A program made the translations under genes and the position numbers. From Burkholderiales bacterium (GTDB lineage: Bacteria; Pseudomonadota; Gammaproteobacteria; Burkholderiales; UBA11063), in contig JAIEPY010000075.1 in NCBI GenBank assembly GCA_019748155.1, positions 1 to 53,908 of the forward strand: a stretch of DNA of 53,908 nt. Direction: 5' to 3'. The number at the start of each line of letters is the position of its first letter. Positions within the stretch are counted from its first letter, which is position 1. Positions 6,682-21,180 of the stretch are shown one piece after another. A model generated the notes under the pieces. It was not told the origin of the DNA and did not search any database. It saw only the letters and a program-made list of their open reading frames with translations.

Positions 6682-6939
6682 ATGACAGAAATAGTTAAAT
6701 TTAGCAAAGCTCAACAAGAGCTCTTGACTCAGAAATTACAGCATTATTTTGCGCGTGAACTAAATTATGATCTTGGTGGGTTTGATGCCCAGTTTCTCTT
6801 GGATTTTATTGCAGAGGAAATTGGTTGTCATTTTTATAATCAAGGATTATTGGATGCTCAAGCAGTATTAAGCAAGAAGGTTGACGATATTCAAGATGCA
6901 ATTGGGCAATTAGAGAAGTTTTCCAAACCAAATAGATAG
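6682..6939 (+). CDS. DUF2164 family protein
   Basis: An 85-residue protein matching the DUF2164 pattern: a LQHYFARELNYDLGGFDAQFLLDFIAEEIG core followed by FYNQGLLDAQAVL, then an acidic tail. The family is widespread in proteobacteria and firmicutes and has no established function. It is 26 bp after the permease and 9 bp before a GNAT gene, so the three probably form one transcript. Written here in pieces because the family call rests on the order of the YF.REL, LDFI.EEIG and YNQ.L.DA motifs. Confidence 0.8.
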   Translation: MTEIVKFSKAQQELLTQKLQHYFARELNYDLGGFDAQFLLDFIAEEIGCHFYNQGLLDAQAVLSKKVDDIQDAIGQLEKFSKPNR

Positions 6940-6948
6940 GATAAGCAG

Positions 6949-7455
6949 TTGGAAATCAGACAAATTTCAGAGATCACGCCAGAACAGAAGAAATATCTAT
7001 CTCAAGTCTTGGTGGAAGCAGTTAATGGCGGCGCATCAGTTGGTTTTATGCTGCCATTTTCTTGGAAAGACGCGGATAATTATTGGTCAATGATTGATTC
7101 TAGTCTAAATAGCCATCATCTTTTATGGGTTGCTATTGAAAAGAATCTAATTATCGCAACAGTACAGCTAATCCTTGCTGTAAGCCAAAATAGACAACAT
7201 CGGGCAGAAGTCGTTAAATTACTAGTATCGCCTCATTTTCGAGGACAAAAAATTGCAACAAAACTGATGAATGCGTTAGAAGCAGAAGCTCATAAACTAG
7301 GAATCACCCTTTTACTTCTGGATACGCAAACCAGCTCTACAGCAGAATCTATATATCAACACTTAGGTTGGCAGAAAATCGGTGAGATTCCAGATTATGC
7401 CAAAAATCCAAGAGGTGTACTCTGTAGCACCAGTTATTTTTATAAATTAATTTAG
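6949..7455 (+). CDS. GNAT family N-acetyltransferase
   Basis: A 168-residue protein of the GNAT fold. Motif A, which binds the acetyl-CoA pyrophosphate, is visible as VKLLVSPHFRGQKIATKLM (V/R-x-x-G-x-A pattern), followed by the helix and LLLLDTQTSSTAESIYQHLGWQKIG typical of motif B. The start is a TTG at 6949 with TAGGATAA upstream; no better ATG gives the full N-terminal strand. Substrate unknown. It is the last gene before the deaminase-led defence block and has a similar base composition to the permease and DUF2164 genes. Confidence 0.8.
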   Translation: MEIRQISEITPEQKKYLSQVLVEAVNGGASVGFMLPFSWKDADNYWSMIDSSLNSHHLLWVAIEKNLIIATVQLILAVSQNRQHRAEVVKLLVSPHFRGQKIATKLMNALEAEAHKLGITLLLLDTQTSSTAESIYQHLGWQKIGEIPDYAKNPRGVLCSTSYFYKLI

Positions 7456-7501
7456 CTTTTATATAAATAATAATTCTATTTATAATCAAGGGAGATTTAC
7501 G

Positions 7502-9799
7502 ATGGTAGATATTACTAGTTTAGATGAGTTAGAACAAAATATTCGTGAATTATGTGTATCTTACTCATCTGGAATACAACTGAAGTTGCGAGATTTTGTT
7601 GGTGATGACGAAACGGTTAAAATAGAGAACACTATCCTCAGGTTCTATAAAAATTCTGATTTTTATAATTTAGAGTTTGTAGATTTAGAAAAAACTACAG
7701 CTAGTTTCAATAAGTTACAAGATGTTTTGTCTGACAACAACGTTTCTAGTGAACAAAAATGGGAAAACTCATACCCTGCAGTTGAAATCCTTGAAACGAA
7801 ATTAGATACTCACCCCCATGGTAACCTTAAACTTCAAATCAATAAATATGAACGATTGACACTTAATTTCTATAATTACTCTCAGAATTCATTATTTAAT
7901 GATTATATTGAAAACATAACTAAAATAATAACTATCATCTTAAAGAAATATTTTGCTCAGAATATCCATAAAACCAATTTAGCGCAACATATCCTAGAGA
8001 TGATATCTAAGACCAATATTGATATTTACGAAGAAACTGATTGTAAATATGAAGATGGTTTCTGGGATATTGCATTAAGTAATAATTGTGGGTTTACCTA
8101 TTTTTATGATAAACCTAAGAAAAATTATTATTTAAACTTCCGTGGATTTTACCTTAGCAATAATAGCGATGCTTTTACGGGAACAATAAAAGATATATTT
8201 GGTGGCGATCTGGAAGTCAAAATTAAATCCTCAACTCGTTTGGGTTCAGATGTTGCTGAGGAAATTTGTGTTAATTTTAAAGGTGAAGATAATATCTTCG
8301 AGAGTCAAGATGATTTCAAGATTAATTTCAAAAGTACTGATTTCTTTGCTATTGTTTTTAAAAATGAACAAGAATTAATTAATAACTCAAAAATTAAGCA
8401 CTTTATTGAACATTTGCTTAAACTGCAGAAAATTAAATTAGGCATTCCAGAAAACCCACCTACAATACAAGGCGTTGGTTTTGCCATCGGATTGATTAAT
8501 GAATTTGCCTTTCCCAAAGATACCCTTAAAGAGCAAATCAAGTCTATATTAATTAATCTTGGGCATAAGGAAAATAACATTCAGTTGCTGGATATAGATA
8601 TAGATGATATAACCTCAATTGAATCATCAAAGATTAATATTATTTCCAACATCTCTAGCACGGAAGGTATCAAAAGCGTAAGAGAACGTACCAACAATAA
8701 GGCAATATTCATTGCATGTGGATTGGAACACGAGTTAGCATCCGTATCTAAACAGAAAATTGTTAAAGAGTTTAAAATCCGTATTCAAAAATGTACGAAT
8801 ACTCTTACAAAAGTTGATTATGAAAATATTGGGCAAAATCTAGCCATTAATAACGACCTAAAAAAATTAAGAGAAGATATCAATAAATGCTATCATCAAG
8901 CAGATTTTTTCTTAACCTATGAAAGCGATAAAAATAGTAAGTTAAGTAAATACAAGATGAAACAGCAATCAAAACGTTTTTTCAACTTACTGCATGGGTT
9001 TCCTTTTGCTACACCAACCAAAGATGAATATGCTATGTATATGGCATTCTCTTCGGCTTTACGTTCAGCAGATTTATCACGCCAGGTAGGAGCAGTTATT
9101 ACCACCCCTAATGGTGATATCCTCGCTACTGGTGCGAATGATATTCCAAAAAGTGGCGGTGGCTTGTATCGTTCTCATCTTAATGAAGAAAATGGTAGTA
9201 TATATGATGACGCTCTTGGGCGCGATTATATGCGCGGGTTTGATTCTAACGCTATAGAGAAACAACAACTAATTGATAATATTTATGAGGCATTGAAAAG
9301 TTATGTAAATGGTGATGTGAATAAAATTAAATCAGCGATTGCAGATAGCAAACTTAAAGAGATTACCGAGTATGGACGAGTGGTGCATGCTGAAATGGAA
9401 GCATTAATGGCATGTGCTCGTGGTCATGTTAGCTCAGACGGTGCAATTCTCTACTGTACAACCTTTCCTTGTCATAACTGCGCCAAACACATCATTGCTG
9501 CGGGGATTAAACGCGTAGTTTATATTGAGCCTTATGCTAAAAGCAAAGCGTTACCATTCCATTTTGATTCAGTAGTGGATGAAGAAGAAAATCCAATTGA
9601 AACATTGATTAAAGATAAGCTTCGGAAAATTAAAGGTAATTATGAATTTATAACAAATCAATCCGAGAAAATTAGGTTTGAGAGCTTTGTTGGAGTTGGA
9701 CCTAATTTATTTCGACAATTATTCAAGATGCAAGATAATAGCCGCAAGAATAAAGATGGTACTATAAAAAATTGGCGACCACAATTAATTGATTTATAA
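7502..9799 (+). CDS. Anti-phage dCTP deaminase-like protein with a long extra N-terminal region
   Basis: A 765-residue protein. The C-terminal third is a zinc-dependent CMP/dCMP deaminase domain: H629-A-E631 in VVHAEMEAL and C657-H-N-C660 in FPCHNC, with SADLSRQVGAVI and ANDIPKSGGG upstream. This combination, preceded by an inter-domain FFNLLHGFPFATPTKDEYAMY stretch, is typical of the anti-phage dCTP deaminases that destroy the dCTP pool during infection. The middle region (about 325-480) matches the place of their kinase-like domain, but its glycine loop, GVGFAIGLINEF, lacks a GKS/GKT. Residues 1 to about 320 are an additional region I do not recognise. It has a strong RBS (AAGGGAG) and leads a three-gene block. 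Confidence 0.8.
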   Translation: MVDITSLDELEQNIRELCVSYSSGIQLKLRDFVGDDETVKIENTILRFYKNSDFYNLEFVDLEKTTASFNKLQDVLSDNNVSSEQKWENSYPAVEILETKLDTHPHGNLKLQINKYERLTLNFYNYSQNSLFNDYIENITKIITIILKKYFAQNIHKTNLAQHILEMISKTNIDIYEETDCKYEDGFWDIALSNNCGFTYFYDKPKKNYYLNFRGFYLSNNSDAFTGTIKDIFGGDLEVKIKSSTRLGSDVAEEICVNFKGEDNIFESQDDFKINFKSTDFFAIVFKNEQELINNSKIKHFIEHLLKLQKIKLGIPENPPTIQGVGFAIGLINEFAFPKDTLKEQIKSILINLGHKENNIQLLDIDIDDITSIESSKINIISNISSTEGIKSVRERTNNKAIFIACGLEHELASVSKQKIVKEFKIRIQKCTNTLTKVDYENIGQNLAINNDLKKLREDINKCYHQADFFLTYESDKNSKLSKYKMKQQSKRFFNLLHGFPFATPTKDEYAMYMAFSSALRSADLSRQVGAVITTPNGDILATGANDIPKSGGGLYRSHLNEENGSIYDDALGRDYMRGFDSNAIEKQQLIDNIYEALKSYVNGDVNKIKSAIADSKLKEITEYGRVVHAEMEALMACARGHVSSDGAILYCTTFPCHNCAKHIIAAGIKRVVYIEPYAKSKALPFHFDSVVDEEENPIETLIKDKLRKIKGNYEFITNQSEKIRFESFVGVGPNLFRQLFKMQDNSRKNKDGTIKNWRPQLIDL

Positions 9800-9825
9800 A
9801 CATCGGTAATTTAGAGGGGTAAAGT

Positions 9826-11895
9826 ATGACGATTATTTTTAATTCAGTAAGAGCGCTAGAATTATTAAGAATAGCAACCAATAATTCTGAGGCTAATTTT
9901 AGAGAAAACCAAAATATTGCAATTCAAACAATTGTTGAAGGTGGTCGCCTCTTAGTGGTGCAAAAAACTGGCTGGGGAAAAAGCTTTGTTTACTTTATCG
10001 CGACTAAACTGTTAAGAGAACAAGGTTGCGGTGTCGCTTTATTAGTTTCTCCACTATTGGCACTAATGCGCAATCAACTTGAAGCAGCTAAATCCATGGG
10101 CGTAAGTGCAGTCGTCATTAATTCTGATAATCGTGATGATCGGGATACCCTTTATGGACAGATAAAAAATAATTCAGTTGACATTGTATTAATTTCTCCA
10201 GAGCAATTATCTAATGAATGGTTTGTTAGTAATGTGCTTAGTCATATTGCTGAGTCATTATCTATGTTGGTTATTGATGAGGCGCATTGTATATCTGATT
10301 GGGGGCATGATTTTAGACCTGACTATCGTAAAATTCAAAGTATACTCAAAAGATTGCCATCAAATACCAGAGTACTAGCAACAACTGCGACCGCGAATGA
10401 TCGTGTTATTTCTGACTTGAAAATAATATTTAGTGGCGATTTGGATATAATTCGTGGGGATTTGTCAAGAAATTCATTAAAATTGCAAACCATTAAATTA
10501 AATACCCCTGAGGAGCGATTAGCGTGGCTAGCTAAAAATATTCCACCGCTATCAGGCAGTGGGATTGTTTATGCACTTACGCAAAAAGACGCAGAGATGG
10601 TTGCTAGTTGGTTACAAACGCAGAATATTAGCGCAAAACCGTATCATGCAGGTCTCACCAAAGAAGATAAACTAATTTATGAAGACGAATTAAAAGATAA
10701 CCAGATAAAAGCATTAGTAGCTACAACTGCGCTAGGTATGGGTTACGATAAGCCTGATATTGGTTTTGTAATACATTATCAAATGCCTAATTCTGTCGTT
10801 TCATATTATCAACAAGTTGGACGGGCAGGGCGAGCCATTGATTTTGCGTATGGTATTTTATTAAGCGGTGCAGAAGATACCAATATTATTGATTATTTTA
10901 TTAATAATGCTTTTCCCTCCCGTGAGTTAGTAGCTCAAATTTTGGAGGAATTTGACAAAGCTTCTGATGGATTAAGTTTAACTGAGTTACAGGCGAAGGT
11001 AAATATCAAAAAAGGCAAACTTGAGCAAGTCCTGAAAATTTTATCGCTTGAAGAGCCTACACCGATAGTAAAAGATGGTTCTAAATATCGTCTGACGATT
11101 ACTACATTACCAGAATCGTTTTGGAATAAGGTAAAACGTTTAATGCAGCTAAGATACGCTGAAGTACAGGAAATGCAAGAATATGTCAAATTACAATCTG
11201 GGCATATGCAATTTTTGATCGAAGCATTAAATGGTGACGCAAGCAATTATATAGAATCGGCATTGCCAGAGGTTGAAAACACAATTAGTACAGAGATGAT
11301 TGCAAATGCGCAACAATTTTTGTTTAGTAATTGGTTAACTATTGAACCGCGTAAGAAATTTATGCAAAAATTAGAAATATATGATGTCGGTGGTAATATT
11401 AGACCTGAATTACAATTACAACAAGGTAAGGTCTTGAGTGCATGGAATGACGCAGGTTGGGGCAGATTAGTTAGTAGTGGTAAATATCAAGATAAATATT
11501 TTGCTGATAAATTGATTGTCGCTAGCGCCAAGTTAATTTCAGAATGGAATATTGAGTTTGATTGCGTTGTACCAATTCCGTCTTTACGCCATCCTAATTT
11601 AGTGTCTGATTTTGCAGAAAGATTAGCCAAAGAGCTTGGTAAGCAATTTAAACCAATTATTCAGATTACTGAATTAAGACCAGAGCAAAAAACCATGCAA
11701 AATAGTATAAAACAATCTTTAAATTTAGATGGAAGCTTTGAATTAACCGAGACACCACCACAAGGTTGTATTTTATTGGTAGATGATATGGTGGATTCAC
11801 GGTGGACGCTAACGATCGCGGGATGGTTATTACAAAAAAATGGGAGTGGTAAGGTATACCCTTTTGCTCTATCAAAAGTAGGAAGTGGTGATTAA
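9826..11895 (+). CDS. RecQ-family DNA helicase fused to a phosphoribosyltransferase domain
   Basis: A 689-residue protein. Residues 1 to about 340 form a RecQ helicase core: Walker A as G49-W-G51-K52-S53, DEAH box at D151-H154 in DEAHCISDWGHDFRPDY, TTATAN, and motif VI as QQVGRAGR. The zinc-binding cysteines of the RecQ RQC domain and an HRDC domain are absent. About residues 555-689 form a PRTase fold, with the PRPP-binding loop at VDDMVDS (D653, D654). The helicase-PRTase fusion next to a DprA-like gene resembles ShosTA, in which a PRTase-domain toxin pairs with a DprA-like antitoxin. It is 26 bp after the deaminase and 3 bp before the DprA-like gene. Not a housekeeping recQ. Confidence 0.85.
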   Translation: MTIIFNSVRALELLRIATNNSEANFRENQNIAIQTIVEGGRLLVVQKTGWGKSFVYFIATKLLREQGCGVALLVSPLLALMRNQLEAAKSMGVSAVVINSDNRDDRDTLYGQIKNNSVDIVLISPEQLSNEWFVSNVLSHIAESLSMLVIDEAHCISDWGHDFRPDYRKIQSILKRLPSNTRVLATTATANDRVISDLKIIFSGDLDIIRGDLSRNSLKLQTIKLNTPEERLAWLAKNIPPLSGSGIVYALTQKDAEMVASWLQTQNISAKPYHAGLTKEDKLIYEDELKDNQIKALVATTALGMGYDKPDIGFVIHYQMPNSVVSYYQQVGRAGRAIDFAYGILLSGAEDTNIIDYFINNAFPSRELVAQILEEFDKASDGLSLTELQAKVNIKKGKLEQVLKILSLEEPTPIVKDGSKYRLTITTLPESFWNKVKRLMQLRYAEVQEMQEYVKLQSGHMQFLIEALNGDASNYIESALPEVENTISTEMIANAQQFLFSNWLTIEPRKKFMQKLEIYDVGGNIRPELQLQQGKVLSAWNDAGWGRLVSSGKYQDKYFADKLIVASAKLISEWNIEFDCVVPIPSLRHPNLVSDFAERLAKELGKQFKPIIQITELRPEQKTMQNSIKQSLNLDGSFELTETPPQGCILLVDDMVDSRWTLTIAGWLLQKNGSGKVYPFALSKVGSGD

Positions 11896-11898
11896 ATT

Positions 11899-13167
11899 AT
11901 GAATATATCAGAAAATACACAAGCAATATTACTGCTTAATGCGCCATTATTATATTGCAATAAATCTCAGGGTATTAAGCCATTAAGTTTAAAAGAATAT
12001 GAATTTATTTCAGATGAATTAAAGCGTTGTGGTTATCAACCTAAAGATTTATTATCGGACGGATCTATAAAACTTCTTGAAAAGCTTAAACATATCGTTT
12101 CAGCCCAAAGGTTATCTGAGCTTTTAGGCAGAGGATTTTTACTCGCTCAATGTTTGGATTATTGGTCTTCAAGAGGGATTTGGGTTATTAGTCGTGCGGA
12201 TGATGCATATCCACAAATTTATAAACAACGCCTCAGAAATAAATCGCCGATACTGATTTATGGATGTGGAGATAAAAATATCTTAACTCAAGGAGGTGTT
12301 GCTATTGTTGGTTCTCGGGATATTGGAGAAAATGTTGTAGCTTATACCGTTAGCCAAATTAATAATTTAGTTAAATTGTCTCAAAATATTATTTCTGGCG
12401 GTGCACGTGGCGTTGATCGAGTTAGTATGTTATCGTGCTTAGACAGTGGTGGCTACAGCTGCGGTGTCTTAGCTGATAGTTTAGCTAAGTCTGTTTTGAA
12501 TGCTGAGTATCGTAAATATATTGCTACTGGTAAGCTAGTACTTATTTCAGCAGTAGATCCAGATGCTGGTTTTAATGTTGGCAATGCAATGGCGAGAAAT
12601 AAATATATCTATGCGTTAGCTCATGCTGGATTAGTCGTAAATTCAGATTTTGCCAAGGGTGGGACTTGGGCTGGAGCTATTGAAGTTTTAAAAGAGCAGC
12701 CACAATTTCCGCTTTTTGTTCGAGAAAATGATTTAACAAATAAGGCATTTATGGAATTATGTAAGTTGGGGGCGCACTTATGGGCGACACCCAAAACTAA
12801 AAATGATTTAAATTTTTTATTAAATCGACAAAAACATATTGTGGCAGGTACAAAAAAAGCTCAAGATCTTTTTAATTCAGATGAGAAAAAAATAATAAAT
12901 AGAGCGCGACATAATGAACTAAAAGATAACAGTATTGATGTTTTGGCATATCAATATTTTAATGAACTAATTTTAAATTATTTAGATGAACCAAAGAGCA
13001 AGAAAGATTTGCAACAAACATTCTCTTTCATAAGCAAAAATATTTTTAATCAGTGGGTTGACTCAATGCTAAAAGAACATATGATTGAAATGATAAAAAT
13101 CAAACGCTCGATGGTATTTTGCAAAGTAAAAAATACTCAAAATCTATTTTCTTCAGGGTTGATCTAG
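11899..13167 (+). CDS. DprA/Smf-like protein, candidate partner or antitoxin of the RecQ-PRTase protein
   Basis: A 422-residue protein. The middle part (about residues 95-275) is a DprA-type Rossmann fold: [21 protein letters not shown], then [23 protein letters not shown] and later the [14 protein letters not shown] and KGGTWAGA stretches. The N-terminal 90 residues and the C-terminal 140 are family-unlike; the C-terminus looks like a winged-helix ([20 protein letters not shown]). DprA loads RecA on single-stranded DNA in transformation, but relatives serve as ShosA-type antitoxins. Coupling to the RecQ-PRTase gene by 3 bp favours the latter role. Its stop ends 1 bp before the metH start codon. 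Confidence 0.8.
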
Positions 13168-13168
13168 T

Positions 13169-16100
13169 ATGCAGCAATCTCCATTAATCAATGAATTACA
13201 ACAAACCCTACACAAACGCATCATGTTCCTCGATGGAGCGATGGGCACAGTTATCCAGAACTATAAACTCAGCGAAGATGATTTTCGTGGTGAACGTTTT
13301 CACGATCACCCGCTGGATTTAAAAGGCAATAATGATTTATTGGTTTTAACCCGCCCGGATATTATCAAAGAAATCTATAAAAATTATTTACTAGCCGGTA
13401 GCGATATAATTGAAAGTAATACCTTTTCAGCAAATATAATCTCACAAAAAGATTATGGGCTGGAGCATCTGGTTGAAGAGTTAAATACTGCGGCTGTCAC
13501 GCTTGCCAAAGAGGTTTGCAACGAAGTAATGCAAGAATATCCTGAGCGTAAATGCTATGTTGCTGGTGCTATTGGTCCTACTAACGTAACCTTATCCATT
13601 TCACCAGATGTTAATAATCCAGCTTATCGCAGCCATAGCTTTGCCCAATTAAAAACAGTTTACTACCAGCAAGCCAAAGCCTTAATCGCAGCGGGAGCAG
13701 ATATTCTATTGCCTGAGACTTCTTTTGATACCCTCAATATGAAAGCTTGTTTGGCAGCAATTGGGCAAGTTGAAGCCGAAACCAATACTAAGTACCCACT
13801 AATTATTTCAGTAACGATTACCGATTTATCAGGACGGACGCTTTCAGGGCAAACGATTGAAGCCTTTTGGTACTCAATCGCTCATGCCAAACCTCTAGCC
13901 GTCGGGATTAATTGTGCCCTAGGCGCTAAAGATATGGCACCCTATATCGCAGCATTAGCCAAAATCAGTGATTGTTTTATTAGTTGCTACCCCAATGCGG
14001 GTTTACCTAATCCTCTGGCACCTACGGGCTATGATGAAACTCCGGAAATGACCGCAGAATACATTTATGACATTGCCAAGCACCATACTTTAAATTTAAT
14101 TGGTGGCTGTTGTGGTACTACTCCAGAGCATATTGCGGCAATTGTTGCCAAAACCAAAAATATCACGCCACACACGCCAAGTTTAGCAACTAGCGCGACC
14201 TTCTTATCCGGATTAGAGCCACTACTAATTGATAATAGCCAAACCCCGCAATTTTACATGGTTGGTGAACGAAGTAACGTTGCCGGATCGCCCAAATTTG
14301 CCCGGCTGATCCGCGAAGGAAATTTTAGCGAAGCGCTCGAAATTGCCAAACAACAAGTTGAAAATGGCGCAAATGTAATTGATATCAACTTTGACGATGG
14401 AATGCTCGATGCCGTTGAATGCATGACTAAATTCCTCAATCTGGTTGCCAGTGAACCGGAAATCAGCCGTGTACCAATCATGATCGATTCGTCCAAATTT
14501 GAAGTAATTGAAGCTGGTTTGCAATGTATCCAGGGCAAAGGAATTGTCAATTCTATTTCACTTAAAGGTGGCGAAAAAGAATTTTTACATCAGGCACAAG
14601 TTATCCAAAAGTACGGTGCAGCCGTAGTGGTAATGGCGTTTGATGAACAAGGTCAGGCAGCTAGTAAAGAAGATAAAGTAGCAATTGCTAAGCGTGCATA
14701 CAAATTACTTACCGAGAAAATTGATTTCAATCCAGCAGATATTATCTTTGATGTCAATATCCTGACCGTGGCGACTGGAATTGAAGAGCATAATAGCTAT
14801 GGAATCAATTTTATTGAAGCGGTACGTGAAATCAAACAATGCTGCCCACGCGCGCTAACCTCAGGTGGTGTCTCCAATCTATCGTTCTCATTCCGTGGCA
14901 ATAATATTGTCCGTGAAGCAATGCATGCAGTATTTCTCTACCACGCAATTAAAGCTGACTTTGATATGGCTATCGTTAATGCCGGAATGCTCTCAATTTA
15001 TGATGAAATTGACAAACCATTACGCGATGCCTGTGAACGGGTTATTCTCAATCTGGATGACAAAGCAACTGAAGATTTATTGGATCTCGCAGAACAATAC
15101 AAAGGACAAGCTAATAGCGTCGAACAAGTCGATGCCTGGCGCGGATGGGAGTTGGAAGAACGCATCAGCCACGCACTGATTAAAGGATTTGAAACCCACA
15201 TTGTTGAAGACACTACCCTTGCACTAGCAAAATATGGCACACCACTCAATGTAATTGAACAACCGCTGATGAATGGGATGAAGATTGTCGGACAACTCTT
15301 TGGCGAAGGTAAAATGTTCCTTCCTCAGGTCGTAAAATCGGCACGGGTAATGAAACGCGCGGTTGCCTATCTTGAACCTTTTATGGAAGCAATCGCAGCA
15401 GAACAACAAACCAGCCAAGCTAAACCAGTTGTCATTATGGCAACCGTCAAAGGTGATGTGCATGATATCGGTAAAAATATCGTAGCACTTGTCTTGCGTT
15501 GCAACGGTTATGATGTAGTTGATCTCGGCGTTATGGTTAGCTGCCAAAAGATAATCGACGCTGCCCGTGAACATAATGCAGCATTTATTGGCATGAGTGG
15601 ACTAATTACCCCATCTTTGGATGAAATGATTTATAACGTCCAACAGTTTGAAGAACAAGGTTTCACTATTCCAGTTTTAATCGGCGGCGCAACCACTTCC
15701 AAGCTACACACCGCAGTTAAAATTATGCAACATTACAGCTCACCAGTAGTCCATGTTAACGATGCTTCATTGGTTGCCGAAGTATGCAGTAAACTGCTCA
15801 ATCCACTAAGTTATGATAGTTATATCGCCGAAGTCCGCGCCCAATACGCCAAATTGCGGGATGATCATTACACAATGCAACGTAAGGTAGAATTACCCAG
15901 CTACAGCGAAGCACTTGCCAAAAAATTTACCAGCGATTGGACAACTCTGGAAATCGCCCAACCTCAGCAACTTGGTGTGCATAAATTAAATCTTGAGTTA
16001 GCGGAGATCGCCGAATATATTGATTGGTCACCATTATTCTGGGCATGGGGCTTTAAAGGCATGTTCCCCAAAATCATGGATAATAAAGATTATGGTCGTG

Positions 16101-16843
16101 AATGTCTTAAAATCTATAATGATGCCAAAAAAATGCTTGGTGAAATCATCCGTAAACAATTATTTACACCACAGGCAGTAGTTGGCTGGTGGCAGGCACA
16201 AAGTCATAATGATGATGTCTATCTGTATAATCCTGATGAATCGCCACTAGAAACCTTATGCTTCTTACGTCAGCAAAATGACAAAGCAATCAATTATTCA
16301 TTAGCCGATTATATTGCACCACGCGACTCAGGGCGAATGGACTATCTGGGTGCTTTTGTAGTTATAATGGAGAATGTTGAGAAATTAGCTCAGCATTACG
16401 AAGCACAAGATGATGATTACCACGCAATTATGGCAAAAGTCCTTGGTGATCGACTAGTCGAAGCTCAAGCAGAATGCGCCCATAAGAAAATGCGCGAATT
16501 TTGTGGTTATGGAATTGGTGAAAATCTATCCAACGAAGACTTGATTTATGAACGTTATCGTGGCATTCGCCCGGCACCAGGTTATCCTGCCTGCCCGGAA
16601 CATACCGAAAAAGGTAAAATCTGGCAGCTACTGGATGCGCAAAATAATACCGGAGCTATTTTAACCGAAAGCTATGCGATGTATCCGGCAAGCTCAGTTT
16701 CTGGCTTTTATTTTAACCATCCGGAATCCAAATATTTTGCAGTCGGTAAATTAACTCAGGATCAGGTTGCCGACTATGCCACACGTAAAGGTATGAGCTT
16801 AGCCGAAGCTGAAAAATGGTTAGCCCCGAATTTAGGATATTAA
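13169..16843 (+). CDS. metH: Cobalamin-dependent methionine synthase
   Basis: A full-length 1224-residue MetH, which transfers a methyl group from methyltetrahydrofolate through cobalamin to homocysteine. All four modules can be followed: the homocysteine-binding barrel with zinc ligands C249 (INCALG) and C314-C315 (GGCCGT); the pterin-binding barrel starting near [13 protein letters not shown]; the cobalamin module with the axial histidine H765 in DVHDIGKNI; and the SAM-binding reactivation domain with [15 protein letters not shown]. It lies 1 bp after the DprA-like gene, so its own promoter and RBS must be inside that gene or it depends on read-through. No cobalamin riboswitch was seen upstream. 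Confidence 0.97.
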
Positions 16844-17210
16844 CTAATGTGTTGCGCACTTTGTTCCGCCTCTAGGTAAGCACGCATTTCTCACAGAAGC
16901 GGGAGTCTATGCACTAGAAGTCATTGCTATATTAACTTATTGGATCCCGCATGCGCGAGGATAATATATTTATAGATCGATGCGTGATCTGAGTATGGCT
17001 GTAGTACACAAATTTTATGTATCAGTATATAAAATTTGTGTACTGGTATAAGTGATAATTCTTAGTTTGTATTTGCGGGATGAAAGTTTAGCTATATAAC
17101 TTAATAGTTCTGAAAATAATACCAAATGATTAGCTACAAAATTTATGCATTATTTGCATTATAATATCGTAAGCACTGTTCCGGCAAGTATGCCTTTTAG
17201 GGAAATAATT
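16844..17210. other. Intergenic region between metH and the second defence block
   Basis: About 370 bp without a gene if the downstream CDS starts at 17211. It contains a 16-bp perfect inverted repeat (17003-17044). The first 110 bp has GCGGGAGTCTATGC and TTGGATCCCGCATGCGCGAGG, which look like a decayed copy of the small palindromic repeat units with CGGGAAT/ATTCCCG ends found in many proteobacteria; too degraded to be sure. Confidence 0.45.
17003..17044. repeat. 16-bp perfect inverted repeat upstream of the DUF262/HEPN/R-M block
   Basis: Left arm AGTACACAAATTTTAT (17003-17018) and right arm ATAAAATTTGTGTACT (17029-17044) are exact reverse complements separated by ten bases. There is no T-run after either arm, so it looks more like an operator for a dimeric regulator, or an RNA hairpin in the leader, than an intrinsic terminator. 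Confidence 0.8.
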
Positions 17211-18338
17211 ATGAAATTAAATTTATTTGAGTTTGAGAAAAGAATTGTACCACCAAATTCATCAAACTTTCAACAAGATATTATTAGTCACGTAAATAGT
17301 CGTGATCGGATAATAAGTGAATTTTCAAGGATTCCACTAAATTCAATAATTAGCTTGCATGAAAAATCTTATTTTAAATTAGATCCCGAGTATCAACGGC
17401 ACTTAAAGTGGTCAGACTCTCAAAAATCTAAACTTATAGAGTCCTTAATTCTTAATATTCCGATTCCTCCAGTCTTCTTGTATGAGTACTCGCTATCAAA
17501 AACAGAGGTTATGGATGGAATACAAAGAATCTCTGCAATAATTGATTTTTTATCAAATAAGTATAAATTGAAAGATTTACTCTTTTTACATGAATTAAAT
17601 GGTAAAAAATTCTCTGAACTTGATGAAGATAGCCAGAATAGTATAACAAGGAGACATTTGTCAGCTATTATTATTTTGAATGAATCATCAAATAATTCAA
17701 TAAAAGAGAAGCAAATTAAAAGACTAATTTTTGAAAGATTAAATACCGGAGGTGTCAAGTTAACATCTCAGGAAGTCCGCCACGCTATTTATCCAGGAAA
17801 ATTTTTAGATGTATGTATTGAGTTAGCTAAAGAAGAAAGTTTTAAGAAGCTATGGGATATTGAAAATAATGCGCGTGGTTCATTAGATAGAAAATATGAG
17901 GAGTTAGTTCTTAGGTTTTTTGCGTTAAGATCTATAAGTGCATTACATACGGATAATAAAAATATCGAAGATTTATTAGATAAATATCTATACTTTGCTA
18001 ATCAATTAGCAGAGGAAGAAATTGATAAACTTGTCTACTTATTTAAAACTACAATGAATACGATATTAGAAACCTTAGGAGTGACTGCTTTTCAAAAAAA
18101 CTCAAAAGGACTCAAAGCAAAAGTCTTAAGTGATCCAATTATGTTAGTATTTTCGAATTATGTTAATGAGATGGCTGCAAAATTGATTGATAAAAAAGAA
18201 ATTCTCATAGATAAATTTCAGTTAATTAAATATGATGCACCAGAAAATAAAAAATTATTTAATGGTAAATATTGGTCAATTAAATTACTAAATGCTAGGT
18301 GTGATTTTTTTGATGAATTGCTAAAAAAATGCCTGTAA
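17211..18338 (+). CDS. DUF262 (GmrSD-like) domain protein
   Basis: A 375-residue protein if started at the ATG at 17211, which has AGGGA eight bases upstream; a longer frame from 17145 has no RBS and is less likely. The DUF262 signature is clear: YQRHLKWSDSQKSKLIESL (Y61-Q62-R63) and VMDGIQR (D102, Q105, R106), then ERLNTGGVKLTSQEVRHAIY. DUF262 is a ParB-like nuclease/NTPase domain found in the modification-dependent enzyme GmrSD and other phage-defence proteins. The C-terminal GmrSD DUF1524 HNH nuclease is absent. It overlaps the following HEPN gene by 10 bp, so the two are translationally coupled. Confidence 0.85.
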   Translation: MKLNLFEFEKRIVPPNSSNFQQDIISHVNSRDRIISEFSRIPLNSIISLHEKSYFKLDPEYQRHLKWSDSQKSKLIESLILNIPIPPVFLYEYSLSKTEVMDGIQRISAIIDFLSNKYKLKDLLFLHELNGKKFSELDEDSQNSITRRHLSAIIILNESSNNSIKEKQIKRLIFERLNTGGVKLTSQEVRHAIYPGKFLDVCIELAKEESFKKLWDIENNARGSLDRKYEELVLRFFALRSISALHTDNKNIEDLLDKYLYFANQLAEEEIDKLVYLFKTTMNTILETLGVTAFQKNSKGLKAKVLSDPIMLVFSNYVNEMAAKLIDKKEILIDKFQLIKYDAPENKKLFNGKYWSIKLLNARCDFFDELLKKCL

Positions 18339-19324
18339 GAAATTTATTATTATCACTAAATACAAAACTTGAAGAGTATATTAGGAAAAGTAATGATTAT
18401 TTAGGATTTGTAAGAAATTTTAAAGAATCTTATGAGAAATCTGAAAAGAAAACAATATTAAAACCTCATGTATATCGTTCTGTAGTGATACACTTTTATA
18501 CAATAATAGAATCATTTTCTTATGATATTGTTGATACGGTACTTACAACGACTAAAAATATACATCTTAATGCTAAGTCTGGGTATAACGATGTAGATAA
18601 AAAACTTAGGGACAACCATCTTAAATCTTCAATTAAATTATTGCAATTACTAGCAGATCAGAAAAGAACAGACTTTAAAATCAATATCGAACAGATAATT
18701 AAAAATTTATATGGCTGTGTAAATCAAAATAGCATTGATTTTACCACTCAGTCTTTTAGGACACATTCAAGTAATCTAACACATGACAATATTAAACAAC
18801 TTCTTTCTAAAGTTAGCATCAATGCTGTTGAATATAATAAAATAAAGATGTATTCAATAAAAGTTGATAACATTGTTAGTTATAGAAATTCTTTGGCCCA
18901 CTCCTTTGAACCTGACGACACAATGCAATCATTAGATATTTTGTTAGAATATATCAATGACATTGAGATGTATTTTAGAATATGGGTTGATAAAATTGTG
19001 GAACAATACGTTGAAATACAAGAAGCCACTTTAGATGGATCCTTAAGACGCTATAAAATAAAAAATATTTTTGATAAAAAATGTATTGCGGGATTTTCAA
19101 TAGAAAGTAATAGAATTTTTTTGAAGCAATGCGGGTTTGTTAGAACAAGCACAAATGATTACATTGCTGTAACTATTAATAGTATCGGAATCGAAAAAAA
19201 GAATGACTATAAGAACATAATGATAACAAATTCTACAGATGTTGCTTTACAGTTTAACGAGGATTTAGGTGGAAAATTTAGGGAAATTGAAGAATTAATC
19301 ATATTTAAAGAATCAAACATATAA
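18329..19324 (+). CDS. HEPN-domain protein (MAE_28990/MAE_18760-like)
   Basis: A 331-residue protein. The N-terminal 220 residues are helical and carry the HEPN ribonuclease motif RNSLAH (R186, N187, H191) within VSYRNSLAHSF, plus a conserved earlier histidine-rich stretch (HVYRSVVIHFYTIIESF). This resembles the MAE_28990/MAE_18760 type of HEPN proteins, which often sit beside DUF262 genes. The C-terminal 100 residues have no family I recognise. A cytotoxic RNase held in check or triggered by the DUF262 partner is a reasonable inference. Its start overlaps the DUF262 stop by 10 bp. Both genes are poorer in G and C than the core genes, consistent with acquisition. Confidence 0.7.
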   Translation: MPVRNLLLSLNTKLEEYIRKSNDYLGFVRNFKESYEKSEKKTILKPHVYRSVVIHFYTIIESFSYDIVDTVLTTTKNIHLNAKSGYNDVDKKLRDNHLKSSIKLLQLLADQKRTDFKINIEQIIKNLYGCVNQNSIDFTTQSFRTHSSNLTHDNIKQLLSKVSINAVEYNKIKMYSIKVDNIVSYRNSLAHSFEPDDTMQSLDILLEYINDIEMYFRIWVDKIVEQYVEIQEATLDGSLRRYKIKNIFDKKCIAGFSIESNRIFLKQCGFVRTSTNDYIAVTINSIGIEKKNDYKNIMITNSTDVALQFNEDLGGKFREIEELIIFKESNI

Positions 19325-19337
19325 ACAGGTATATTTT

Positions 19338-20183
19338 ATGACAAATTTATTAATAGCAATTAAAAACATAATTGAAAACCCAGTTAATGAGCTGGTCGAG
19401 TACTACAAAGGCACCAATCGCGCCAATAATATGGGTGATGCTCTCGAAAAATACGTAAAAGATGCGTTTTGCGGAATAGATAACACACTCTCAGATATTG
19501 AACGAGATAAGCAATATTCACAATACTTCTCTTATCTAGGAAACCCAAATAATCCACCAGATTTAATTTTAAAAAATGGTGATGCAGTTGAAGTTAAAAA
19601 GAATGAGAGTTTGAATTCAGCAATAGCACTAAACAGCTCTTATCCTAAAAGCAAATTATATGCCGATGATAGCCGTATCACGGTTGATTGTAAAAAATGC
19701 GAAGATACTCCGTGGCTTGAGAAAGATATAATTTATGTAATTGGCTATAATCCCAAGAATACCAAAACATTAAGGTCAATTTGTTTTATCTATGGCGATT
19801 GCTATGCTGCAAGTAAAGAGATTTATACCCAATTCACAGATAAAATTAGCCAAGGCATCCAAGAAATAGAAGGTATTGAATTGGTAGCTACTAATGAATT
19901 GGCTAAAGTAAAAAAAGTTGATCCACTAGGAATTACCGATTTAAGAGTCCGAGGGATGTGGCATATTGAAAGCCCTATGAAAGTGTATAAAGATTTCTTT
20001 ACCCTAACTGATAGCGCCAGCTTTTCATTAAATGCAATTATTTTGTTAGATCAGTATAATTCGTTTCCAGAACAAGATAGATCTTGTTTAGAACAAAAAG
20101 GTATCGTTTCAGAAATTGAAATAAAATCCCCAAATAATCCAGCAAAATTCTTAAAAGCGAAATTAATCAGCTATGAAAAATAA
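19338..20183 (+). CDS. Type II restriction endonuclease, NgoPII family (likely GGCC)
   Basis: A 281-residue protein. NPVNELVEYYKGTNRANNMGD near the N-terminus matches my memory of NgoPII, the gonococcal GGCC-cutting enzyme; the block KGTNRANNMGDALEKYVKD continues it. The likely PD-(D/E)xK centre is P74-D75 with E85-V-K87 (DAVEVKK). A CxxC (DCKKCED) follows. It would cleave unmethylated GGCC sites. It overlaps the methylase gene by 11 bp, the usual tight endonuclease-methylase pairing, and follows the HEPN gene by 13 bp with an AGGTAT upstream. Specificity is inferred from the family and the partner methylase. Confidence 0.88.
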   Translation: MTNLLIAIKNIIENPVNELVEYYKGTNRANNMGDALEKYVKDAFCGIDNTLSDIERDKQYSQYFSYLGNPNNPPDLILKNGDAVEVKKNESLNSAIALNSSYPKSKLYADDSRITVDCKKCEDTPWLEKDIIYVIGYNPKNTKTLRSICFIYGDCYAASKEIYTQFTDKISQGIQEIEGIELVATNELAKVKKVDPLGITDLRVRGMWHIESPMKVYKDFFTLTDSASFSLNAIILLDQYNSFPEQDRSCLEQKGIVSEIEIKSPNNPAKFLKAKLISYEK

Positions 20184-21180
20184 TATTGTCTCATTATTTA
20201 GTGGTGCGGGCGGTCTAGATTTAGGCTTTAATCAAGCTGGATTTAACGTGATATGGGCAAACGAATATGATAAAACAATTTGGGGAACTCATGAGTTCAA
20301 TTTTCCAAATTCGCATCTAGACAAACGAAATATCACCAAAGTTAACGCCCAAGAAGTCCCTGATTGTGTTGGGATAATTGGTGGACCACCTTGCCAAAGC
20401 TGGAGTGAGGCTGGAGCTGGCAGAGGTATAGAAGATCATAGAGGACAGTTATTCTATGATTATATTCGGATATTAAAAGAAAAACAGCCAAAATTCTTCT
20501 TAGCAGAAAACGTTCCCGGTATGCTATTACCCCGTCATCGAAATGCTCTGGTTGCCATTCTTAAAGAGTTTGAAGATATAGGCTATAACGTAACTAAGTA
20601 TTTACTCAATTCAAATGACTATAGTGTTCCACAAGAAAGAAAACGAGTCATCATAGTTGGATATCGTAAAGATCTTGGTAAAATATTTATTCCACCTAAG
20701 CCAAATTTATATAAGCCAACATTAAAAGATGCAATTTGGTCTTTGAGATTGTCCAAGCCTGCTCTAGACAAGAACTATAGCAATGGTGATGATAATTTAG
20801 CAGCACCAAATCATGAGTATATGACTGGTGGATTTTCGACCATTTATATGTCAAGAAATAGAGTAAGAAGCTGGGAAGAGCCTTCATTTACTATTCAAGC
20901 AGGCGGACGGCACGCTCCATTACACCCCAAAGCACCTAAGATGTTATTTATAGAACAAAACAAAAGGATTTTTGTTCCTGAACAAGAACATTTATACCGC
21001 AGATTAACTGTGCGCGAATGCGCCAGAATCCAAACCTTTCCCGATGATTTCATCTTTAAATATCACAATATTGCAGATGGCTATAAAATGGTAGGTAATG
21101 CAGTGGCGGTTGAATTTGCTCGCCAATTAGCGCAAGTAATCTATAATGATATTATTTTACCGCCCAACAATTCGTTATAA
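20173..21180 (+). CDS. DNA cytosine-C5 methyltransferase, M.HaeIII-like (GGCC)
   Basis: A 335-residue C5 methylase. Motif I is SLFSGAGGLDLGF; motif IV is GGPPCQSWSEAG with the catalytic C74; motif VI is AENVPG; motif VIII is QERKRV; the target-recognition part includes STIYMSRNRVRSWEEPSFT, and motifs IX-X include RRLTVRECARIQTFPDDF and GYKMVGNAV. The whole length, including the recognition region, parallels M.HaeIII, so the target is very probably GGCC with methylation of the inner cytosine. It protects the host from the neighbouring NgoPII-like endonuclease. ATG overlaps the endonuclease end. Confidence 0.93.
   Translation: MKNNIVSLFSGAGGLDLGFNQAGFNVIWANEYDKTIWGTHEFNFPNSHLDKRNITKVNAQEVPDCVGIIGGPPCQSWSEAGAGRGIEDHRGQLFYDYIRILKEKQPKFFLAENVPGMLLPRHRNALVAILKEFEDIGYNVTKYLLNSNDYSVPQERKRVIIVGYRKDLGKIFIPPKPNLYKPTLKDAIWSLRLSKPALDKNYSNGDDNLAAPNHEYMTGGFSTIYMSRNRVRSWEEPSFTIQAGGRHAPLHPKAPKMLFIEQNKRIFVPEQEHLYRRLTVRECARIQTFPDDFIFKYHNIADGYKMVGNAVAVEFARQLAQVIYNDIILPPNNSL

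Follow-up and report, generated by a model that had tools for sequence, protein, structure and literature searches.

Organization of the locus

The window, a 53,908-nt stretch of DNA from a Burkholderiales bacterium, contains three adjacent open reading frames (ORFs; here genes 1 to 3) inserted between a GNAT gene and metH. The features of this region, with the evidence for each in brackets, are as follows.

6682..7455, + strand: DUF2164 gene and GNAT gene, conserved left boundary (domain matches, synteny with relatives)
7456..7501, + strand: gap between GNAT gene and deaminase gene, 46 bp (ORF coordinates)
7502..9799, + strand: gene 1, long anti-phage dCTP-deaminase-like protein, 765 aa (PADLOC dCTPase, 8.5e-107)
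7502..8452, + strand: N-terminal extension of gene 1, residues 1-317, two predicted alpha/beta units (alignment, predicted structure)
8453..8851, + strand: putative shortened, degenerate nucleotide-kinase-like (P-loop-like) domain of gene 1, residues ~318-450 (alignment)
8852..9799, + strand: deaminase domain of gene 1 with zinc motifs HAE (629-631) and PCxxC (656-660) (PF00383)
9826..11895, + strand: gene 2, PsyrT/RqlH-type toxin, 689 aa, RecQ helicase with C-terminal PRTase (PADLOC PsyrT, motifs)
11899..13167, + strand: gene 3, PsyrA/RqlI-type DprA-like antitoxin, 422 aa (full-length PADLOC PsyrA match, PF02481)
13169..16843, + strand: metH, conserved right boundary of the insertion site (NF007024, 1840 bits; genus-wide synteny)

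A check of the ORFs agreed with a previous sequence-only reading in coordinates, strand and spacing: 26 bp separate the deaminase gene from psyrT and 3 bp separate psyrT from psyrA, all on the plus strand. These are not chance reading frames, since they are long and match curated families at E values of 1e-90 to 1e-259. Left out of that reading were the 46-bp gap behind the GNAT gene, the spacing between psyrA and metH, and residues ~1-317 of gene 1, which lie outside the known deaminase family. The 46-bp gap holds a ribosome-binding site (AAGGGAG) in front of the deaminase gene and a sigma70-like promoter match (TTTATA-17-TATAAT, 7458-7486), with promoter matches across the region being not above those in shuffled sequence. 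At the other end, the psyrA stop codon and the metH start codon are 1 bp apart (window 13165-13171). With psyrA ending this close to metH, short gaps do not mark off a set of three genes. Given the close packing on one strand and the plausible ribosome-binding sites, the deaminase and PsyrTA may share one transcript, and they could be functionally coupled in the window strain.

A second defence block lies past metH (window 17145-21180), followed by ksgA. It encodes a DUF262/GmrSD-type protein (PADLOC NsnA, 1.7e-69), a HEPN protein, an NgoPII-type restriction enzyme and a C5 methyltransferase. The genes behind metH are different ones in the sister Neisseriaceae AWTP1-26 (G127; locus L028), which makes metH look like a defence hotspot.

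A long dCTP deaminase relative with an N-terminal extension

The likeness of gene 1 to anti-phage dCTP deaminases, noted before from sequence, was borne out by the PADLOC dCTPase match, which covers residues 434-758 (8.5e-107). The zinc region of dCMP/cytidine deaminases (PF00383) was found at residues 506-675 (6.7e-20), and the HAE and PCxxC motifs are intact and invariant among relatives in the alignment. Against NCBIfam NF041025, gene 1 scored 303.6 bits, below the 400-bit cut-off, and aligned to model positions 102-435 of 437 only. Because it falls below the curated score, we regard it as a divergent long relative and did not file it as a member of that family. Alignment with ~500-aa dCTP deaminases from Acinetobacter, Morganella, Vibrio, Rheinheimera and others placed residues ~318-450 on their kinase-like domain, in shortened and very divergent form and with low-confidence kinase-fold matches, and left residues 1-317 as extra sequence. 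The longest open frame of other dCTPase-family matches outside the genus in our surveys was 625 aa, versus 765 aa here.

The extension was seen only in three genomes of the same genus, namely, the window genome, G127 and G209. A profile search found no homologues outside the genus among 369 class-level genomes, and none were found among plasmids, PDB sequences or domain libraries. None of the phage-collection matches listed extends into it, and a scan of viral contigs confirmed no relative. Modeling of the extension (mean pLDDT 71) yielded two successive alpha/beta units with a similar order of elements, and the predicted secondary structure looks repeated; an internal duplication was not detected by sequence (hhalign probability, 0.6%). 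Fold searches with this model gave no match at E < 0.001, and weak matches to aspartate-kinase, ARPC2 and TBP-like folds were set aside as not interpretable. The model of the full-length deaminase was poor (pLDDT 52).

Between the window and G127, protein identity was 39% over residues 1-150, 82% over residues 151-317, 76% over residues 318-450 and 87% over residues 451-765. The diverged 5' part of the gene corresponds to window 7502-7951 and L028:5594-6040, and the intergenic DNA upstream of it likewise differs. Estimates of dN/dS were 0.53/2.16 for residues 1-150, where dS is near saturation and only 9 four-fold sites enter the comparison of two sequences, versus 0.09/0.34 for residues 151-317. 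A two-rate model placed the break at residue 173 (2dlnL 162). This pattern suggests either allele exchange or fast local evolution of the first ~150 residues, both of which fit two sequences; under the former, the 5' part of the gene would have been exchanged between alleles. Such divergence is as expected of a phage-facing sensor, and residues 1-150 may represent one.

The RecQ-PRTase and DprA-like pair

Gene 2 matched PADLOC PsyrT over its full length (1e-259, positions 7-686 of 689), and gene 3 matched PsyrA over its full length (5.7e-113, 376 bits) and the DprA family (PF02481, 2.4e-30). The RecQ-PRTase fusion recognized previously in gene 2 was recovered as a RecQ-type DEAD helicase with a C-terminal PRTase signature, and the other domain calls held as well. 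Its helicase motifs are intact (GWGKS [Walker A], 49-53; DEAH, 151-154; QVGRAGR, 330-336), as is the PRPP-binding motif of the PRTase (LLVDDMVDSRWT, with DDMVD at 653), and these motifs align with copies in E. coli, Sinorhizobium and Nostoc that are 45 to 56% identical. Judged by these matches, genes 2 and 3 are PsyrTA/RqlHI, an already known pair of RecQ-PRTase toxin and DprA-like antitoxin. The sequence-only reading had likened them to a helicase-bearing form of ShosTA; its description of toxin and antitoxin was correct, but the pair is PsyrTA itself. A new helicase-bearing ShosTA was ruled out, as the PsyrA score lies far above that of the best PADLOC ShosA model (1.7e-20, 71.5 bits). In E. 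coli RqlHI, toxicity of RqlH requires the PRTase, and RqlI binds and neutralizes RqlH (PMC4670107); the DprA-type antitoxins of shosTA, syrTA and rqlHI have been named together (PMC9122126). For one E. coli PsyrTA, phage protection was undetectable under the conditions tested (PMC12409345), so that a defence role of PsyrTA is not universal.

Elsewhere, E. coli carries PsyrTA within a type I restriction-modification (RM) operon, flanked by hsdS and hsdR (L094:3700-13779, L097, L098; two chromosomal contexts and one plasmid context inspected), and a near-identical copy is present in 53 of 5,426 genomes; the class-level relative G565 (L076:5109-15218) likewise has PsyrTA between hsdS and hsdR. 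On an Acinetobacter plasmid, a BREX operon contains PsyrTA, followed by a DUF262 gene, between its pglX and pglZ genes (L093:3429-15124). A Sinorhizobium pSymB psyrT (L091:6995-10424) is followed by an early-ending psyrA gene and a further ORF in an overlapping frame, near IS elements and an integrase. In view of the nested copies, tight same-strand packing behind a defence gene is not special to the window, and the nesting offers a lead to how PsyrTA is triggered. PsyrTA might even be a guard or addiction module that sits in the same orientation inside other defence operons, reacts to a disturbed partner system or transcript, and here rides on the deaminase. The RM and BREX operons speak for such a role, but they amount to two independent contexts, the restriction operons of E. 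coli and G565 being related, and most other copies stand alone or adjoin non-defence or unassigned genes; we therefore consider it improbable.

Deaminase and PsyrTA occur apart from each other

The closest relative, G127, whose MetH is 96% identical to that of the window, has the order DUF2164-GNAT-deaminase-metH without PsyrTA. The DNA match between the two genomes ends precisely at the stop codon of the deaminase gene and starts again at the metH ATG. In G127, 202 bp separate the deaminase stop codon from metH; this leader is absent from the window, where psyrA and metH are only 1 bp apart, so that expression of metH may there rely on the genes in front of it. The slightly more distant G204 has DUF2164-GNAT-metH with a 69-bp gap between GNAT gene and metH and neither module, and G209 carries a 738-aa long-type deaminase at a different site, again without PsyrTA. 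Orthologous sites with a deaminase number only two, and either a gain of PsyrTA in the window lineage or its loss in G127 would fit them. PsyrT was absent from the 22 other genus genomes searched (23 with the window genome; several incomplete), in which matches to the PsyrT search were ordinary RecQ-family or other helicases. As the deaminase stands alone in G127, at the same site, and in G209, it does not need PsyrTA.

We then determined co-occurrence in two wider samples, which overlap in some genomes. Among 369 class-level genomes, PsyrT was present in 13 (threshold E 1e-110, with a few matching in the helicase part only) and the deaminase in 5, and only the window genome had both; leaving it out, 12 genomes had PsyrT, 4 had the deaminase and 0 of 368 had both. 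Among 299 phylum-level genomes, each was present in 17. Two genomes were common to both sets: that of the window and another, in which the two genes lie on different short contigs. Without the window genome, 16 carriers of each overlapped in 1 of 298 genomes, compared to an expected 0.86 (16 x 16 / 298). No deaminase was found in 27 PsyrT neighbourhoods (L071, L076-L085, L091-L095, L104-L114) and no PsyrT in 26 deaminase neighbourhoods (L006, L008-L015, L028, L060, L125-L139), many of both being bounded by contig ends. In both samples, the overlap between PsyrT carriers and deaminase carriers was no larger than chance would give, and adjacency outside the window was at or below chance.

These results bear on the single three-gene system proposed in the sequence-only reading. 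In it, PsyrA and PsyrT would be the sensors of DNA damage or of recombination intermediates that switch on the deaminase, and sensing would be coupled to nucleotide depletion. Gaps of 26 and 3 bp between genes of the same strand and the ties of both halves to nucleotide metabolism and phage defence fit this proposal. However, the deaminase lacks PsyrTA at the same site of the closest relative and occurs by itself in G209, PsyrT lacks a deaminase in every other neighbourhood examined, and co-occurrence, the proposed check on a common system, stays at chance level, which makes a three-gene system very unlikely. A housekeeping role in nucleotide salvage or repair linked to metH expression, for which the shared direction with metH and the 1-bp distance from psyrA stop to metH start would speak, is hardly credible given the intact defence-family matches, the second defence block across metH, and the patchy presence in a genus where most relatives have metH without deaminase or PsyrTA and where conservation of these genes with metH was not seen.

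Two probably independent, neighbouring defence modules

Given the separate presence in relatives and a co-occurrence no higher than chance, the outcome for which the sequence-only reading had itself named two neighbouring systems as the alternative, we conclude, with a probability of about 0.85, that two independent defence modules accumulated between the GNAT gene and metH, an apparent hotspot. Module 1 would be a single-gene anti-phage deaminase, in which the C-terminal dCTP/dCMP deaminase is probably autoinhibited by the extension together with the shortened kinase-like domain; sensing of a phage-linked cue would free the enzyme to deplete dC nucleotides. AvcD deaminates dCTP and dCMP upon infection (PMC10511110), and by analogy, depletion of dC nucleotides upon infection is most likely also the function of gene 1. 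Module 2, the PsyrTA/RqlHI pair, would act separately: the DprA-like antitoxin is expected to bind the PRTase part of the RecQ-PRTase toxin and restrain it, and release of the toxin would cause DNA-damage-type toxicity. The modules are possibly cotranscribed and their effects possibly additive, with neither requiring the other.

As to the control of gene 1, an upstream RNA antitoxin of the AvcI type, for which the minimum is ~171 nt (PMC10511110), was excluded by the 46 bp available and by an Rfam search of the window that returned no RNA match. As these 46 bp are too short for such an RNA, control probably resides within the protein, and the diverging N-terminal extension is probably the best candidate for it. 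More tentatively, gene 1 could be a self-contained defence protein whose two-unit alpha/beta N terminus takes the place of the RNA antitoxin: it would sense phage and thereby control dCTP deamination, its first module being exchangeable. We think this possible but doubtful; if true, nucleotide-depletion immunity would be regulated here through a new architecture. Sister alleles, with their strong divergence over the first ~150 residues and conservation in the rest, make phage sensing by dCTP deaminases testable via domain swaps. With the three-gene coupling rejected, a spurious system is not added to the catalogue, and the remaining find is a rare deaminase variant encoded by a single gene.

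Comparison with known systems

Both kinds of defence gene at this locus are already known, and what is new is the architecture of the deaminase. ShosTA also pairs a PRTase toxin with a DprA-like antitoxin, but its toxin is helicase-less, whereas the toxin here carries a RecQ helicase. Genes 2 and 3 resemble PsyrTA/RqlHI in the full length of both proteins, gene order, the 3-bp gap, and the helicase and PRPP-binding motifs; their structure is no different, and only their location is, directly behind a dCTP deaminase gene and 1 bp before metH. In contrast to AvcID, gene 1 has just 46 bp upstream, into which an AvcI-type RNA would not fit. With the anti-phage dCTP deaminases (PADLOC dCTPase, NF041025, AvcD), gene 1 shares the HAE/PCxxC deaminase domain, preceded by a stretch that can be aligned with their degenerate kinase-like domain; it differs from them by an added 317-residue N terminus, the shortened and very divergent form of this kinase-like part and a total length of 765 aa.
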